This document shows, one piece after another, positions 57,212 through 62,901 of a stretch of 62,901 nucleotides of DNA. The stretch lies in the NCBI GenBank assembly GCA_030524705.1, contig JAUNGD010000014.1, forward strand, positions 1-62,901, in the 5' to 3' direction. Source of the stretch: Lachnospiraceae bacterium. Its GTDB lineage: Bacteria > Bacillota > Clostridia > Lachnospirales > Lachnospiraceae. The notes under the pieces were generated by a model. The model was given only the letters and a program-made list of their open reading frames with translations, had not been told where the DNA came from and ran no database searches. Position numbers and translations under genes: made by a program. Position 1 is the first letter of the stretch. Every line of letters starts with the position of its first letter.

Positions 57212-60016
57212 TTATTTTACCGTAACCTTGCAGGTCTTCTTTACCTTGCCTGCCGTCACAGTGATCACTGCCGTTCCTTTTTTCTTCGCAACGATCTTTC
57301 CGCTGGCATTTACCGTTGCCACTTTCTTATTGGAACTCTTATAGGTAATCTTTGCCTCTGCGCCCTTCGGTGAAAGCTTCGGCTTCAAAGTGGTAGATTT
57401 TCCTTTTTTCAGAGTGATTTCATCTTTTACACCGGTAATGCCGGTAGGCGCAGTTTTCGGCACAGTGACTGTAACAACCGCTTTTTTGCTTCCCGATTTT
57501 ACGGTGATTTTTGCCTTTCCGGAACCTTTTGCCGTGATAACACCCTTACCGGATACGGTGGCCACCTTCTTGTTGGAGGAGGAATAGCTTACCTTATCCG
57601 TGGTGGTGATCGGCGTGATCACCGGAGCCAGCGTATATTTCTTTCCCTTTGCCAGAGTCAGCTTTTTACTCACGTTGCTGATCTTTGAGGTCTTTACAGC
57701 CCCCTTCTGTACCGTTACCTGAACCTTTTTCTGCAGGCCGCTGGCCAGGGTAATCGTAATATTTGCTTTTCCTGTCTTATTCTGCGCCGTAATCTTACCT
57801 TTGCTGTTTACCTTTGCAACCTTCGTATTGCTTGACTTCCAGGATACGATATAATCGCCCGCTGCCAGCCCGGATACCTTTACCTTTGTGGTAGACTGTT
57901 TTACCTTCAGCGGAATCTTGGAAGTATTGACTGTCATAGTCGGAGCCAGGGCTGCGATCGGAGTGGTTTCCTGAACGCCGCAGACAGTACAGGTGCGTAC
58001 CGATACACCGTCGGCAAATACGGTCGGGGCCTGAGCAATCGTCCACTCGCCAAAGGTATGGCTTCCGGTGGCCCAGAGAATATCGTCATATTCATCTCCG
58101 CATATTGTACAGCGTGCCTTTGCGGAGCCATTTGTGACGCAGGTCGGCTCAATGCGGCTGATGTAGCTGGGCTGATGCTCGCAGACTGTGCCCATATTAA
58201 TATTGAAAGAACCACTCATACTATCCTCGAGATACTGCGCAATCAGATAATATGTCTTTCCCGCAGTCAAATTGTATTCGATCCTGAAATTCAATCTCTC
58301 GCCGCCGTCATCATCTGACACAAGAGTAGTCTTGTTTTCATCACAAAGATACGCATATGTATCCTCCTGTGTACTGGAATAAAATGCATATTTTGCCGTT
58401 TTTTCCGGTACGATCTTATAAAATACTTTTCCTCCTGCGGCCAGGGATGCACTGACCGTTCCGCCATTCGGCAATACTGACGCATTCTGGAAATCAGAGG
58501 CGTTTATTACTTTGATATCGAAATATGCATATCTGTGCATATACCCGTCAGTAACCCGGCATGTGATCCGACAATTCGACGTAATTTCCGGTGTTGTATA
58601 AGAGACCCCCGTCGCTCCTGGAATATCAATATCTTCTGTACCCATCCACTGGTACTGCAAAGCGCCTGCACCTGCATCTGATGAAGCTGATACAGACAGA
58701 CTGACCGGCTGACCCATTTCTACAAACACATATCTGTTGGGTACTGGAGATACCGTAAGATGTGTCTCTGGTCTTACATAAAAATCAGCCCGTATCTCTT
58801 CAACATCATCCGATATCTTACACACATAGTCACCGGTTTCATTTACAGTTAAACTCGGAGCAACTGCATTCTGTATCAAATCTTCTTGTTTTGTGAGAGG
58901 ATTATATTTATACCATGCATATCTGATTGTCCCATATTTTTCATCGTCGTGTGAAGCACTTACCGAGAGAACAGCACTTCCACCAAGGAACAAATCCACG
59001 AAACTTTCTTCATTTTCCACTGTAAGTCCCGAGGTCACATGGATAAAATAGTGATATCTCACAGAAAATCCATTCTCATCTACTAAATCACAGTAATAGT
59101 AATTCGTTTCCCCATCACTGTCTACTGTGTAAGTATTTGTATAGCTTTCCCCTTCAATCGGAAGTGGTTCTGTTCTATCATTATAGCTTGCATACCATTG
59201 ATAAGTGATATTCTTTTCCGGTGACTCTGCTACTAAAGTGCATGTCTCGCCAGGTCTTACGGATGGATAAAAGAAATGATACTGTAAGCAAGAAAATCCT
59301 ACCTGCGCAGTACAGTCAGCTCCTGAACGGTTCACGATTTTCAGCAAATATGGATCTCCTTCTAATATCTTAAGATAATATGCTTTGAAACCATCCCCAT
59401 TAATCTGTATACAAGAAGCAGGTTCTTCTGCAGATTCGTACAAATCATATATTGTTACATCTATATTTTCCTGAACTGGGAGCTTTATATAAAAATATCC
59501 ATCGTTTTCACCATTAAAAGTATAGCTTGCCTCAGTATTTGCGGGCACGGTAACTGTTTCCGTATCAGAAGTGATTGAAGCAGAAAGGGCAGCCCCTTCC
59601 ATATAGCTACTGGTGTCACAGACTTCCTCCAACGCTTCAATTGATTCAACAAAATCATCCGTTACAATTTCATTTTCTACCGGCAAGGCAGCTTCTTCCT
59701 CATGATACAGACTTTCCGCCTCTGTCGGTGCGGATTCTGCTGCAGCTTCTGCCAACGTCTCTGCCTCCAGCTCTTCCGCTTCATCGGCCGGAGCATTCAA
59801 TTCTTCCTTTGACTCCTCCGTTTCATTGGCCGGAACATTCAATGTTTCTGCTGACACCTCCGCTTCTTCAACGCCCGTGTCAAAAGAAATCTCTTCGTCC
59901 ATGATCGCATCTTCCACAATCATATCCTCCTCTGCATACCCCACCAGAGCATTTGCCGGAGCAGATGTCATTACCATGGCCATCGCCAAAGCGAAAGCCA
60001 GCTTTCTCCTTTTCAT
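57212..60016 (-). CDS. large secreted surface protein with Ig-like domains
   Basis: 934 residues from ATG 60016 (AAGGAGGAAGAGG upstream). A signal peptide precedes an acidic, Glu/Ala-rich region (about 30-135, repeats of the type PANETEESKEELNAPADEAE), then several Ig/PKD-like beta domains (about 155-590), a double C-x-x-C segment (CTICGDEY and CTVCGVQ near 620-660) and three bacterial Ig-like Big_2 repeats (YSSSNKKVATVSGKGVITAK and similar, about 675-934). There is no sortase motif or membrane anchor. Likely an adhesin or wall-associated protein. Its promoter contains a nine-G run. Confidence 0.85.
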   Translation of the reverse strand: MKRRKLAFALAMAMVMTSAPANALVGYAEEDMIVEDAIMDEEISFDTGVEEAEVSAETLNVPANETEESKEELNAPADEAEELEAETLAEAAAESAPTEAESLYHEEEAALPVENEIVTDDFVESIEALEEVCDTSSYMEGAALSASITSDTETVTVPANTEASYTFNGENDGYFYIKLPVQENIDVTIYDLYESAEEPASCIQINGDGFKAYYLKILEGDPYLLKIVNRSGADCTAQVGFSCLQYHFFYPSVRPGETCTLVAESPEKNITYQWYASYNDRTEPLPIEGESYTNTYTVDSDGETNYYYCDLVDENGFSVRYHYFIHVTSGLTVENEESFVDLFLGGSAVLSVSASHDDEKYGTIRYAWYKYNPLTKQEDLIQNAVAPSLTVNETGDYVCKISDDVEEIRADFYVRPETHLTVSPVPNRYVFVEMGQPVSLSVSASSDAGAGALQYQWMGTEDIDIPGATGVSYTTPEITSNCRITCRVTDGYMHRYAYFDIKVINASDFQNASVLPNGGTVSASLAAGGKVFYKIVPEKTAKYAFYSSTQEDTYAYLCDENKTTLVSDDDGGERLNFRIEYNLTAGKTYYLIAQYLEDSMSGSFNINMGTVCEHQPSYISRIEPTCVTNGSAKARCTICGDEYDDILWATGSHTFGEWTIAQAPTVFADGVSVRTCTVCGVQETTPIAALAPTMTVNTSKIPLKVKQSTTKVKVSGLAAGDYIVSWKSSNTKVAKVNSKGKITAQNKTGKANITITLASGLQKKVQVTVQKGAVKTSKISNVSKKLTLAKGKKYTLAPVITPITTTDKVSYSSSNKKVATVSGKGVITAKGSGKAKITVKSGSKKAVVTVTVPKTAPTGITGVKDEITLKKGKSTTLKPKLSPKGAEAKITYKSSNKKVATVNASGKIVAKKKGTAVITVTAGKVKKTCKVTVK

Positions 60017-60071
60017 TTCCTCTTCCTCCTTCTTTTCTCTATGCTTTGCCGCACAAATAAATATATTTTTT

Positions 60072-60101
60072 AGTATACCCCCCCCCGTAGTATTTTGGCA
60101 A
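60072..60101 (-). promoter_or_regulatory. promoter of the Ig-like protein with a nine-G spacer (candidate phase-variable promoter)
   Basis: TTGCCA (60101-60096), an 18-bp spacer whose last nine bases are G (60086-60078), then TATACT (60077-60072). Loss of one G would give the optimal 17-bp spacing, and gain would weaken the promoter. Homopolymer spacers of this kind switch surface genes in other bacteria; switching here is inferred. Confidence 0.65.
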
Positions 60102-60153
60102 CATAGTTCCATCACATTTAATATTTTGTAAAATAAACGTAAAAGAAGCGCAC

Positions 60154-60204
60154 AAAAAAAGCACCACACTTTCTGGTATTGCGGACTACCAAAAAGGTGG
60201 TGCT
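60154..60204 (-). terminator. strong terminator of the cobalamin-riboswitch transcript
   Basis: Arms AGCACCAC / GTGGTGCT extended by CTTTTTGGTA / TACCAGAAAG (one mismatch, one bulge), about 18 bp, then seven T on the minus strand. It ends the transcript begun at the riboswitch promoter. Confidence 0.9.
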
Positions 60205-60207
60205 GTT

Positions 60208-60241
60208 CGTACAGATCAGCTTGCGGAACGTCATCTGTACG
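60208..60241 (-). ncRNA. conserved-looking hairpin in the riboswitch transcript
   Basis: A perfect 9-bp inverted repeat (CGTACAGAT / ATCTGTACG) around a 16-nt loop, only 3 nt before the terminator stem. It gives the 3' part of the transcript a structured, non-coding character. Confidence 0.5.
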
Positions 60242-60427
60242 GGCTCTGACGGTTTGCTTTTGCGGAGAGCTGATACCAGCCAGAGCACAAGGAGGTATGT
60301 TTTGTGTATATCTCCATTGCCTTGAGACAACATTCCATTCATTTCATTCATGCCTGATTACCCAATTCAGACAATACGGCCAATTGACCGTTGTGGAGTG
60401 TTCAGCTTTACTCGGAAGCTCTTCTCT

Positions 60428-60589
60428 CATACCAAGCAGGTTTCCTGGCTCACAGATCATCGCTTACTTCTCCTTCTCACGTTTGTATGGGTACGCAATG
60501 GATTCTCGAAGCTCGCTCCCTGTATACAGTGACCGGATCGCTCAGGCATCTCACCTGATTCCCTCTTCAGATTAACTGCACTTGATATG
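60428..60589 (-). ncRNA. cobalamin (adenosylcobalamin-type) riboswitch aptamer
   Basis: On the minus strand the aptamer shows the conserved elements in order: P1 5' arm CATATCAAG (60589-60581), GAGGGAA, GGTGAGATGCCTGAGCGATC, CCGGTCACTGTATACAGGGAG, GAAGGAGAAGTAAGCGATGA, and the B12 box GAGCCAGGAAACCTGC, closed by CTTGGTATG (60436-60428), which pairs with P1 over 9 bp. It binds cobalamin derivatives and normally represses B12 synthesis or uptake genes. No such gene follows here. Confidence 0.93.
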
Positions 60590-60612
60590 GCAATTTCTTA
60601 TTACACGTTAAA

Positions 60613-60641
60613 AATATAACATATTTTTTTCAATGCGTCAA
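60613..60641 (-). promoter_or_regulatory. promoter of the riboswitch transcript
   Basis: TTGACG (60641-60636), 17 bp, TATATT (60618-60613). Start near 60606, about 17 nt before P1. Confidence 0.8.
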
Positions 60642-60674
60642 CGCCTTTATTTCAGTTTCTGAAAAATTGAAAAG

Positions 60675-60944
60675 TTAACGCACACAGAATCCTCTTTCTT
60701 CTACTATCGAAATCTCCTTCGCATCCATCCAGTCGATTGAAATGTATCTGTCATTGTTCAATCCTTCCAAAAGCTTATCAATAAGGATACTGCTTCCCTG
60801 GAGTTCCATACTGACCGTCCCGTCCCACTCATTTCTGACCCAGCCGGTCAGTCCCAGGGACTGGGCCATGTATTTTGCCTTATAACGGAACCCAACTCCC
60901 TGAACGCGCCCGTAAAAATGAATATGCCTGCGTATTTCTGCCAT
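60675..60944 (-). CDS. acyP: acylphosphatase
   Basis: 89 residues, full length. The active site GRVQGVGFRYKAKYMAQSLG (catalytic Arg) and GWVRNEWDGTVSMELQG (catalytic Asn) are present. It hydrolyses acyl phosphates such as carbamoyl and acetyl phosphate. It ends just before the riboswitch promoter; no functional link is apparent. Confidence 0.94.
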   Translation of the reverse strand: MAEIRRHIHFYGRVQGVGFRYKAKYMAQSLGLTGWVRNEWDGTVSMELQGSSILIDKLLEGLNNDRYISIDWMDAKEISIVEERGFCVR

Positions 60945-61005
60945 TTCTCTGTTATTCCTTTATTCTTTTCCTGACTTAAAATGTGTTTGCAGATCAAATA
61001 CTGCT

Positions 61006-62295
61006 TTAGTAGTAGCAGTTATGCACCTTCTGCCATTCACAGATAATATCAATATTGTTCAGCTCCGTGCTGGTGATATATGTGTACAGCATGTCATTTG
61101 CTGAGCTTGACGGACAATACGGTTTCGCCTGCTCATACCAGTCTTTTCCGTTGAACTGATCATAGGCTTCCTTTGACGCGCCGCCGTTCTCCGGATGGAA
61201 CACATAGCCATATCTGGCCAAGATCTCATTGATTGCAAGCTGGGATTTGTAATGCTCCTCTTCCACGCTGGAGCCCTCCAGTTTTGTCAGATCTGCATCC
61301 GTTAAGGTCTGGGTGCTGCTGTACGGAAAGATAAAATCAGAAGCGGGAGCCTGAATACCGTTCACCACCGTTATCATCTCCACGGGAGCCTCTAAAGCGC
61401 CGCCGCTGCCTTCCAGGGCAGCTCCGTTCCCAGCTCCCGATGCGTCAAGACTGCCTCCTGATATCCCGTTGTCCGTACTTCCTGATGCTCCCCCGGATAC
61501 CGCCGACAGGATCTCCGGCGTCACAAGCGCAGTCTGCTGCCCTGCCGCATAGGATGCTACATTGTATGGTGCAATATTCACATACATTCCTTCTGCCTGC
61601 ACCCAATATTTCATTATATCAAAGCAGCTTCTGATACTGTCCTCTGTGATATTTTCTACCTGACCTATGATCTCCTTCCTGTATGCCTCCACAACAGCCT
61701 CCTGCGCCGTGGTCTCGTCACACCCCAGGATTCCTCCCATAGTCAGTTCCTCCCCGGTGCGGAGATTGAAGGTGGTTCCCACCGGGAAGCCGTATCCGTG
61801 CGCCCCTCCCGTATAGCTGTAGTAGTCCTGTTCCACAGAAAAAATTTCTCCGTCAATATAAATAGACCCGCAGGTCACTTCTGAGGTCAGATGCTGAACT
61901 GAATCGGGATTATACTCCTGCACCTCCGCAGCAATTCCATTCATATTTTCCGCCTCATCCATGGCCATCTTGTATGCTTCCTCATAAAAATGCTGATTAA
62001 TGCTGTCTACAATGCTCTGGTCAAAACCATCAATCCCGGCCAGTACGGGATACTCTATCTTTACGTAATCCCCCTGTGTGACCGTGGACACAGAAGCCTG
62101 GAAAATACCGGAAAAATATTCTTCTGCTTTCACAGTATTTTCTCCCCAAAAACATGCCTGCAAGCCGCCGATACAAATGCACGCTACAGCTATGGCCGCC
62201 GCTGTCTTTCTGCCCATTTTTCCGTCTATCCTTCTGTTTATCCTTCTATCCATCTTTTCATTCATTTTTTTATTCATCCCATTTTTCCTGCTCAT
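61006..62295 (-). CDS. secreted or membrane-anchored DUF4163/DUF3298 protein with YARHG domain
   Basis: 429 residues if started at 62295; an ATG six codons later (62277) has a better ribosome site (AGGAAA). A strongly basic N-terminus of repeated MNKKMNEKMDRRINRR type leads to a hydrophobic signal or anchor (about 30-48), a DUF4163/DUF3298 region (about 60-240, with YSYTGGAHGYGFPVG), a Gly/Ser-rich linker, and a C-terminal YARHG domain (AINEILARYGYVFHPENGG). RsiV-like anti-sigma factors share DUF3298, but no cytoplasmic anti-sigma domain is visible here. Confidence 0.8.
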   Translation of the reverse strand: MSRKNGMNKKMNEKMDRRINRRIDGKMGRKTAAAIAVACICIGGLQACFWGENTVKAEEYFSGIFQASVSTVTQGDYVKIEYPVLAGIDGFDQSIVDSINQHFYEEAYKMAMDEAENMNGIAAEVQEYNPDSVQHLTSEVTCGSIYIDGEIFSVEQDYYSYTGGAHGYGFPVGTTFNLRTGEELTMGGILGCDETTAQEAVVEAYRKEIIGQVENITEDSIRSCFDIMKYWVQAEGMYVNIAPYNVASYAAGQQTALVTPEILSAVSGGASGSTDNGISGGSLDASGAGNGAALEGSGGALEAPVEMITVVNGIQAPASDFIFPYSSTQTLTDADLTKLEGSSVEEEHYKSQLAINEILARYGYVFHPENGGASKEAYDQFNGKDWYEQAKPYCPSSSANDMLYTYITSTELNNIDIICEWQKVHNCYY

Positions 62296-62409
62296 TCTAT
62301 TTTTCTGTACCTAAGCTTTTCACAGTATGAACTGCCTGATATTTTGAAATATCCGGCAGCTTCCCCTATCTCTGAAGCCTGAAACGCTGTCTTTGTTTTA
62401 TTTGTATTC

Positions 62410-62439
62410 AGTATAGTATACCGTTCCCTCTTTTTACAA
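62410..62439 (-). promoter_or_regulatory. candidate promoter of the DUF3298 gene
   Basis: TTGTAA (62439-62434), 18 bp, TATACT (62415-62410). A leader of about 105 nt follows, with a hairpin (CTGCC..ATATTT / AAATAT..GGCAG at about 62343-62371). Confidence 0.5.
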
Positions 62440-62441
62440 GC

Positions 62442-62486
62442 AAAAACAGGCCCGCAGAGAAAATTTTTCTCCACAGAGCCTGTTTT
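62442..62486. terminator. terminator of folD (possibly bidirectional)
   Basis: Outer arms ACAGGC / GCCTGT and inner GAGAAAA / TTTTCTC, with a T-run on the minus strand (TTTTT) and a weaker one on the plus strand (TTTTCTTT). Confidence 0.7.
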
Positions 62487-62533
62487 CTTTCACATACCTT
62501 CCGCAAAGTACCAGCGGAAGCTTCATCCTGCTC

Positions 62534-62901
62534 TTACAGTCCGGCTTTCTTTGCTGCCGCTTCTACTACATGGCTTACCAGAACAGACGTCGTAACGCTT
62601 CCAACGCCGCCCGGTACCGGAGTGATCGCTTCTACGATCGGCTCTACTGCTGCGTAATCTACGTCGCCGCAAAGCTTTCCTTCTGCATTTACGTTGATAC
62701 CGACGTCAATGACTACCTGACCCGGTTTTACGTACTCAGCGCCTACCACACCTGCACGGCCTGCAGCTACGATAATAATATCTGCTTCTCTCGCTACAGA
62801 CGGCATATCCACAGTTCTTGTGTGGCAAACAGTAACCGTCGCATTCTTCTTGATCAGCATCATGGCTGCCGGCTTGCCTACTACAAGGCTGCGGCCGATG
62901 A
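62534..62901 (-). CDS. folD: FolD, C-terminal part (methylenetetrahydrofolate dehydrogenase/cyclohydrolase; runs off window)
   Basis: About 122 codons to the window edge. They begin [20 protein letters not shown], the NADP-binding region of FolD (IGRSxxVGKPxAxLL), then [21 protein letters not shown] and [16 protein letters not shown], the other family motifs. The N-terminal catalytic Lys/Tyr region lies outside. It provides one-carbon folates in the cytosol. Confidence 0.96.

Follow-up and report, generated by a model that had tools for sequence, protein, structure and literature searches.

A poly-G tract abutting the -10 hexamer as a candidate phase-variable promoter of a secreted Ig-like protein gene in a Lachnospiraceae bacterium, with similar tracts ahead of genes for exported-looking proteins

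Does a run of nine G between the -35 and -10 hexamers of a gene for a secreted Ig-like protein serve as a switch, or does it belong to an ordinary promoter? We addressed this question in the window, which is the whole 62,901-bp stretch of Lachnospiraceae DNA analysed, and by comparison with other genomes of the genus, family and class. Judged from these comparisons, the G9 run probably marks a place of slippage within a sigma-70-type promoter spacer, by which the secreted Big_2 protein would be stochastically switched. Promoters with a homopolymer in the spacer are a known kind, represented by opc and porA of Neisseria meningitidis and by PPA1880 of Cutibacterium (Propionibacterium) acnes. The porA gene has a poly-G promoter of variable length and encodes a surface protein; it differs from the window locus in belonging to a Gram-negative pathogen and in encoding an unrelated protein.

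Promoter anatomy and gene start

A preliminary description had reported TTGCCA, 18 bp and TATACT, the -10 being directly preceded by nine G, ahead of a secreted multi-Ig protein. The promoter was confirmed on the minus strand by direct readout (plus strand AGTATA at 60072–60077, C9 at 60078–60086 and TGGCAA at 60096–60101) and by a promoter scan, which also lists the TTGCCA/TATACT pair with 10 of 12 matches. The description of the protein was likewise right, with three Big_2 stretches found by domain search and an N-terminal signal sequence recognized by eye, as expected of an exported or surface product. The features, in order of transcription, are:

60096–60101, minus strand: -35 hexamer TTGCCA, 5/6 matches to TTGACA
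60078–60095, minus strand: spacer of 18 bp, AAATACTAC followed by the nine-G run (sequence readout, promoter scan)
60078–60086, minus strand: G9 tract abutting the -10, the proposed slippage site (sequence, homopolymer count)
60072–60077, minus strand: -10 hexamer TATACT, 5/6 matches to TATAAT
60017–60071, minus strand: 55 bp separating the -10 from the ATG and containing a ribosome-binding site of the GGAGG type
57212–60016, minus strand: gene for a 934-aa secreted protein with three Big_2 (bacterial Ig-like) stretches

The spacer thus holds a homopolymer of the length sought (about eight or more between the -35 and -10). Because G occupies the positions preceding the -10, the TG of an extended -10 is impossible here, and because an extended -10 cannot form, the promoter must use its -35. 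Lacking an extended -10, it would depend on the -35 and on its spacing. Replication slippage that adds or removes a G would shift the -35 relative to the -10, such that the present 18-bp spacing would become 17 bp with one G fewer and 19 bp with one G more, and the outcome would be stochastic, heritable high or low transcription of the secreted Big_2 protein. We infer slippage at the window locus, its effect on expression, surface exposure of the product and a benefit such as immune or phage evasion or bet-hedging.

The G9 tract is the only homopolymer of at least nine in the 62.9-kb window. G8 strings numbered 3 against 2.13 expected from shuffles, and promoter-like sites in 58500–62901 numbered 9 against 7.6, neither being significant alone. 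These shuffle-level counts are what an ordinary fixed promoter would predict, in which the G-rich spacer has no role in switching; given the recurrence and tract-length differences described below, we consider such a promoter unlikely, while G9 may be fixed at the window locus itself. With 5/6 matches in each hexamer the window promoter falls below consensus, and a strict TTGACA/TATAAT pattern would miss it.

The tract could also act in translation, if an upstream start yielded a longer protein whose frame was shifted by slippage. The reading frame of the gene is indeed open as far back as 60169, across GGGGGGGGG, but the ATG at 60016, which is preceded by AAGAAGGAGGAAGAG and lies 55 bp past the -10, agrees with both the ribosome site and the signal sequence. 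Moreover, open frames between tract and gene were not in excess: of the 111 poly-G sites at which a gene could be called, 18 had one, compared to a mean of 26.5 for the other two frames. We consider a translational role very improbable.

A cobalamin riboswitch RNA and a terminator upstream

Just upstream of the poly-G promoter and on the same strand lie a riboswitch and a terminator that were absent from the preliminary description:

60613–60641, minus strand: promoter-like site TTGACG-17-TATATT, its -10 preceded by TG, a possible promoter of the riboswitch RNA
60418–60600, minus strand: cobalamin riboswitch aptamer, RF00174 (92.1 bits, E = 1.5 × 10−21)
60205–60417, minus strand: conserved structured RNA from aptamer to terminator, an expression platform or sRNA body
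60154–60204, minus strand: strong intrinsic terminator, a hairpin with a T run, between the riboswitch RNA and the poly-G promoter

The covariance-model match covers positions 1–189 of the 189 in the model, with a gathering threshold of 31.5 bits. An 86-nt stretch containing the terminator folds at −35.9 kcal/mol (z = −5.2), and the terminator stem covaries across 23 aligned sequences. The unit was detected by DNA match (E < 0.001) in 41 of 46 other genus genomes, some of these matches being pieces of the aptamer only.

This arrangement raises the alternative that the riboswitch is the main determinant of Ig gene expression, such that at low B12 transcripts from 60613–60641 pass the terminator and the poly-G promoter is minor. 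The strong RF00174 match and the promoter-like site, directly upstream on the same strand, are compatible with such control, as is the conserved 3′ region, which offers alternative helices, one of them pairing the 3′ end of the aptamer with a later hairpin. However, the strong terminator intervenes, and the RNA is not tied to the Ig gene: of 29 relative loci, with flanks of up to 1.5 kb, 16 had spoIVA downstream of the RNA and none had the Ig gene there. We regard control mainly by the riboswitch as quite improbable, with B12-dependent read-through a possible second input to the gene. In the window genome the Ig gene thus occupies the place next to the RNA that in relatives often belongs to spoIVA. 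It starts just past the terminator, where no promoter candidate is better than the G9 site.

Other neighbours of the RNA varied. A protein resembling 62534–62899 (FolD) was nearby in 18 of the 29 relative loci, an acyltransferase-like gene intervened between the RNA and spoIVA in two loci (L041, L042), and nuoE-like genes followed the RNA in two others (L052, L066), these three names being assigned by eye without a family search. Because the following genes differ between species, the RNA may represent either an sRNA under B12 control or an expression platform of elaborate design. Within it (60154–60600, minus strand), some 250 nt of highly conserved sequence come after the aptamer. They include a 12-bp long-range helix, invariant or almost so, with which a local GTACAGAT/ATCTGTAC hairpin competes, as well as an ATACCTCCTT (anti-Shine-Dalgarno-like) segment and UCCGCA motifs. 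The alignment of 23 sequences, in which the terminator covaries, has 57 predicted pairs, 19 of them with double changes. An Rfam search with the 3′ part of the RNA gave no family at the cut-off and, at a loose threshold, weak sub-cut-off eukaryotic families only, and the hairpin motif GACGTTCCGCARRC showed no excess in the genome (92 compared to 126 for the control, allowing up to two mismatches). Nine cobalamin riboswitches above the cut-off were found in the window genome (G000, 3.87 Mb; L067–L075).

The best full-length homologue of the Ig protein (L010 in genome G027) has 38% identity over query positions 1–859 and 2 internal stops, and no poly-G was present within the roughly 380 bp inspected upstream of this single full-length homologue. 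A related-locus search with the Ig protein as query returned no relative. We rejected the possibility that the tract is conserved together with the gene, as this sole full-length homologue inspected is without it; given also that the Ig gene follows the riboswitch RNA in none of the relative loci, the tract is conserved with neither gene nor place.

Recurrence of G runs abutting the -10

The preliminary description had interpreted the site as a phase-variable promoter, and that interpretation gained support from three observations: recurrence compared to near-zero controls, a bias toward exported products, and homologous promoters that differ in G number. A G9 search of the window genome (3.87 Mb) returned 6 overlapping matches, corresponding to 5 distinct tracts. 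Two of the five end directly at a TATACT, are served by a -35 with 5 or 6 matches at a distance of 18 or 19 bp, and precede a secreted-looking gene; the second copy reads TTGACA-19-TATACT with G9. The other three are inside reading frames of other genes.

Among 47 genomes of the genus, G runs abutting TATANT (GGGGGGGTATANT) occurred at 33 places in 18 genomes, compared to 1 match for the reversed control, and 30 of these places were inspected as loci. Requiring a full -35 (TTGACAN{3,14}GGGGGGTATANT) left 12 sites in 8 of the 47 genomes (reversed control 0). The pattern TTGACAN{4,13}GGGGGGGTATAAT was found at 9 sites in 6 of 391 genomes of the class, indicating that the strict form is uncommon across it, at 12 sites in 9 of 299 genomes of the window's family, and at 86 sites in 69 of 398 genomes of another family of the class (f91), with a control count of 0 in all three sets. 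That a G-abutting -10 recurs with almost no control matches argues against the ordinary fixed promoter. A chance origin of the class was rejected on the basis of these near-zero or zero reversed-pattern counts, the window site alone being at shuffle level.

Named genomes contained the strict TTGACA/poly-G/TATAAT form in at least 120 stretches, a count made without a control pattern. Among the matches listed (80 titles), most were metagenome-assembled genomes of Clostridia and Bacilli, many from animal gut or rumen by title, and Streptobacillus, Streptococcus, Helicobacter, Saccharibacteria and spirochaetes were also represented. A phage origin was rejected, with 1 stretch found in viral contigs.

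Products of poly-G promoters

Genes directly behind poly-G promoters were enriched in exported-looking products (82 of 103, compared to 148 of 526 neighbours in the same 120 stretches, P = 1.4 × 10−22), as scored by a crude hydrophobicity rule that looks for an N-terminal positively charged hydrophobic segment. The 120 named stretches contain 127 sites; the 103 are those whose first gene had at least 80 aa and a ribosome site, 24 being dropped, and the background consisted of genes of at least 100 aa with a ribosome site. Behind plain promoters, exported-looking genes numbered 2 of 14, and at the f91 loci inspected (30 sites) the corresponding share for poly-G promoters was 20 of 29 first genes. 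A domain scan of ten products from the genus assigned terminal Big_2 domains to five (from genomes G009, G022 and G015), a BspA-type LRR to one from G023 and a peptidoglycan-binding domain to one from G066; another, from G011, is the product of a polysaccharide synthesis gene, and two of the ten had no clear family.

Tract length differs between homologous promoters

One set of homologous promoter pairs was defined by an upstream flank aligning at 80% or more over at least 40 bp. The number of G differed in 8 of 14 such pairs and was equal in 6, and the length of the non-G spacer differed in 3 of 14; the pairs are not all independent, and the variation is between genomes or contigs rather than inside one population. 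Genomes G773 and G788 carried G9 and G10 with the same non-G spacer and 250 of 250 identical bp downstream, and their alignment over 2277 bp contained 91 mismatches and only 2 gap openings. Two contigs of G015 carried G9 and G10 within a 122-bp match of 96.7% identity that covers the promoter and sequence upstream of it. In G972, G8 and G7 were carried by two contig ends (114-bp match, 96.5%). These differences in G number among homologous promoters are a second point against an ordinary fixed promoter.

A G11 tract in G772, beside G773 and G788, was excluded from the counts. Three strings with the same TTGACAAAATTC and 10, 11 or 12 G were likewise excluded, their flanks not being homologous.

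Spacer lengths

Spacers of poly-G promoters ranged from 13 to 20 bp over the sets. Sites were pooled if TATA[ACT]T was preceded by 7 or more G and the -35 had no fewer than 5/6 matches, others being dropped. The 157 sites were distributed as follows:

14 bp: 5
15 bp: 18
16 bp: 27
17 bp: 10
18 bp: 47
19 bp: 45
20 bp: 5

Plain promoters, drawn as controls from all loci under study and not solely from those bearing poly-G, peaked at 17 bp (20 of 42, or 43 of 99 when one -35 mismatch was allowed), and the 17-bp share differed between poly-G and plain promoters (10 of 157 compared to 20 of 42, Fisher P = 3 × 10−9). Shuffling tract lengths placed a mean of 23.8 sites at 17 bp, with 4 of 20,000 shuffles as low as 10. 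In f91, spacers of 17 bp numbered 13 of 86, those of 16 bp 12 and those of 18 bp 22, and among f91 strings not seen before, 17 bp accounted for 9 of 64. Avoidance of 17 bp as a law was rejected, as the dip in the first set was not replicated in f91. Both sets have a broad spread with no peak at 17 bp. A variable tract seen in snapshots would give such a spread, whereas promoters of a static class should show a peak.

A putative class of slippage promoters and its known relatives

These promoters recur before genes for exported proteins in other bacteria, many of animal-gut origin, and may thus constitute a class of random on/off switches that has drawn little notice. On balance we lean toward regarding -10-abutting poly-G promoters as a widespread, largely undescribed phase-variable class that serves exported proteins in host-associated Clostridia and Bacilli, with spacers spread around the 17-bp optimum rather than kept at it, such that in most cells full expression would be one or two slippage steps away. 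Among the matches listed in open-licence literature (titles and abstract starts), none described promoters switched by a poly-G tract in gut Clostridia or in Lachnospiraceae.

The closest known system, to judge from excerpts of the report, is PPA1880 of C. acnes, where 11, 13 and 15 G correspond to spacers of 18, 20 and 23 nt as printed, and the protein was secreted only by the strain with the 18-nt spacer (PMC3224659). Like the window locus, it has a G tract in the spacer of a putative promoter and a secreted product, in its case a putative adhesin, but it is actinobacterial, concerns one gene and has longer tracts, whereas the form searched here abuts the -10 and occurs in many Clostridia and Bacilli. 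As portrayed in an excerpt on N. meningitidis, opc shares a homopolymer of variable length in a surface-protein promoter; it differs in that the tract is named as C, the organism is a Gram-negative pathogen and the protein is unrelated (PMC3960869). G-tract slippage also switches a surface structure of a gut commensal, the pilus of Bifidobacterium breve, although the summary of that report places the tract within the gene and not in promoter spacing (PMC9187656). Phase-variable promoters of Clostridia are represented by pdcB and pdcC of Clostridioides difficile, which differ in that the switch is DNA inversion by site-specific recombination and not slippage; the excerpt of the phase-variation review that describes them covers Clostridia via C. 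difficile loci, two with inverted promoters, and does not mention slippage for these loci (PMC11868660).

If the class is real, the surface heterogeneity of uncultured gut Clostridia and Bacilli would be readable from metagenome reads by counting G, and predictable gene by gene. Slippage promoters would then cover Ig-like, LRR and other exported proteins, and the class permits a specific comparison of expression against spacer length over hundreds of loci.

Other G-tract loci

In four genomes (G007, G029, G070 and G006), G-run/TATAAT sites were preceded by AATGACC-N(4-5)-TGTGAC, with an ATGACC-type hexamer replacing TTGACA. Twelve loci are of this type (L084, L085, L088, L092, L095, L096, L098, L100, L101, L102, L104 and L105), 10 of them truncated by a contig end. 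One poly-G promoter of the standard form, TTGACA-15-TATAAT with G8 (L264 in G011:C17, minus strand), lies ahead of a polysaccharide synthesis gene; a chain-length-type gene (by eye) comes next, and slippage control of a capsule operon is possible there. A G10 tract of the window genome (L002/L003, G000:C21:12853–12862, minus strand) is located in a polysaccharide-like cluster, recognized by eye, at the junction of two frames of one acetyltransferase-like gene that is frame-broken at this point, a possible intragenic contingency locus.
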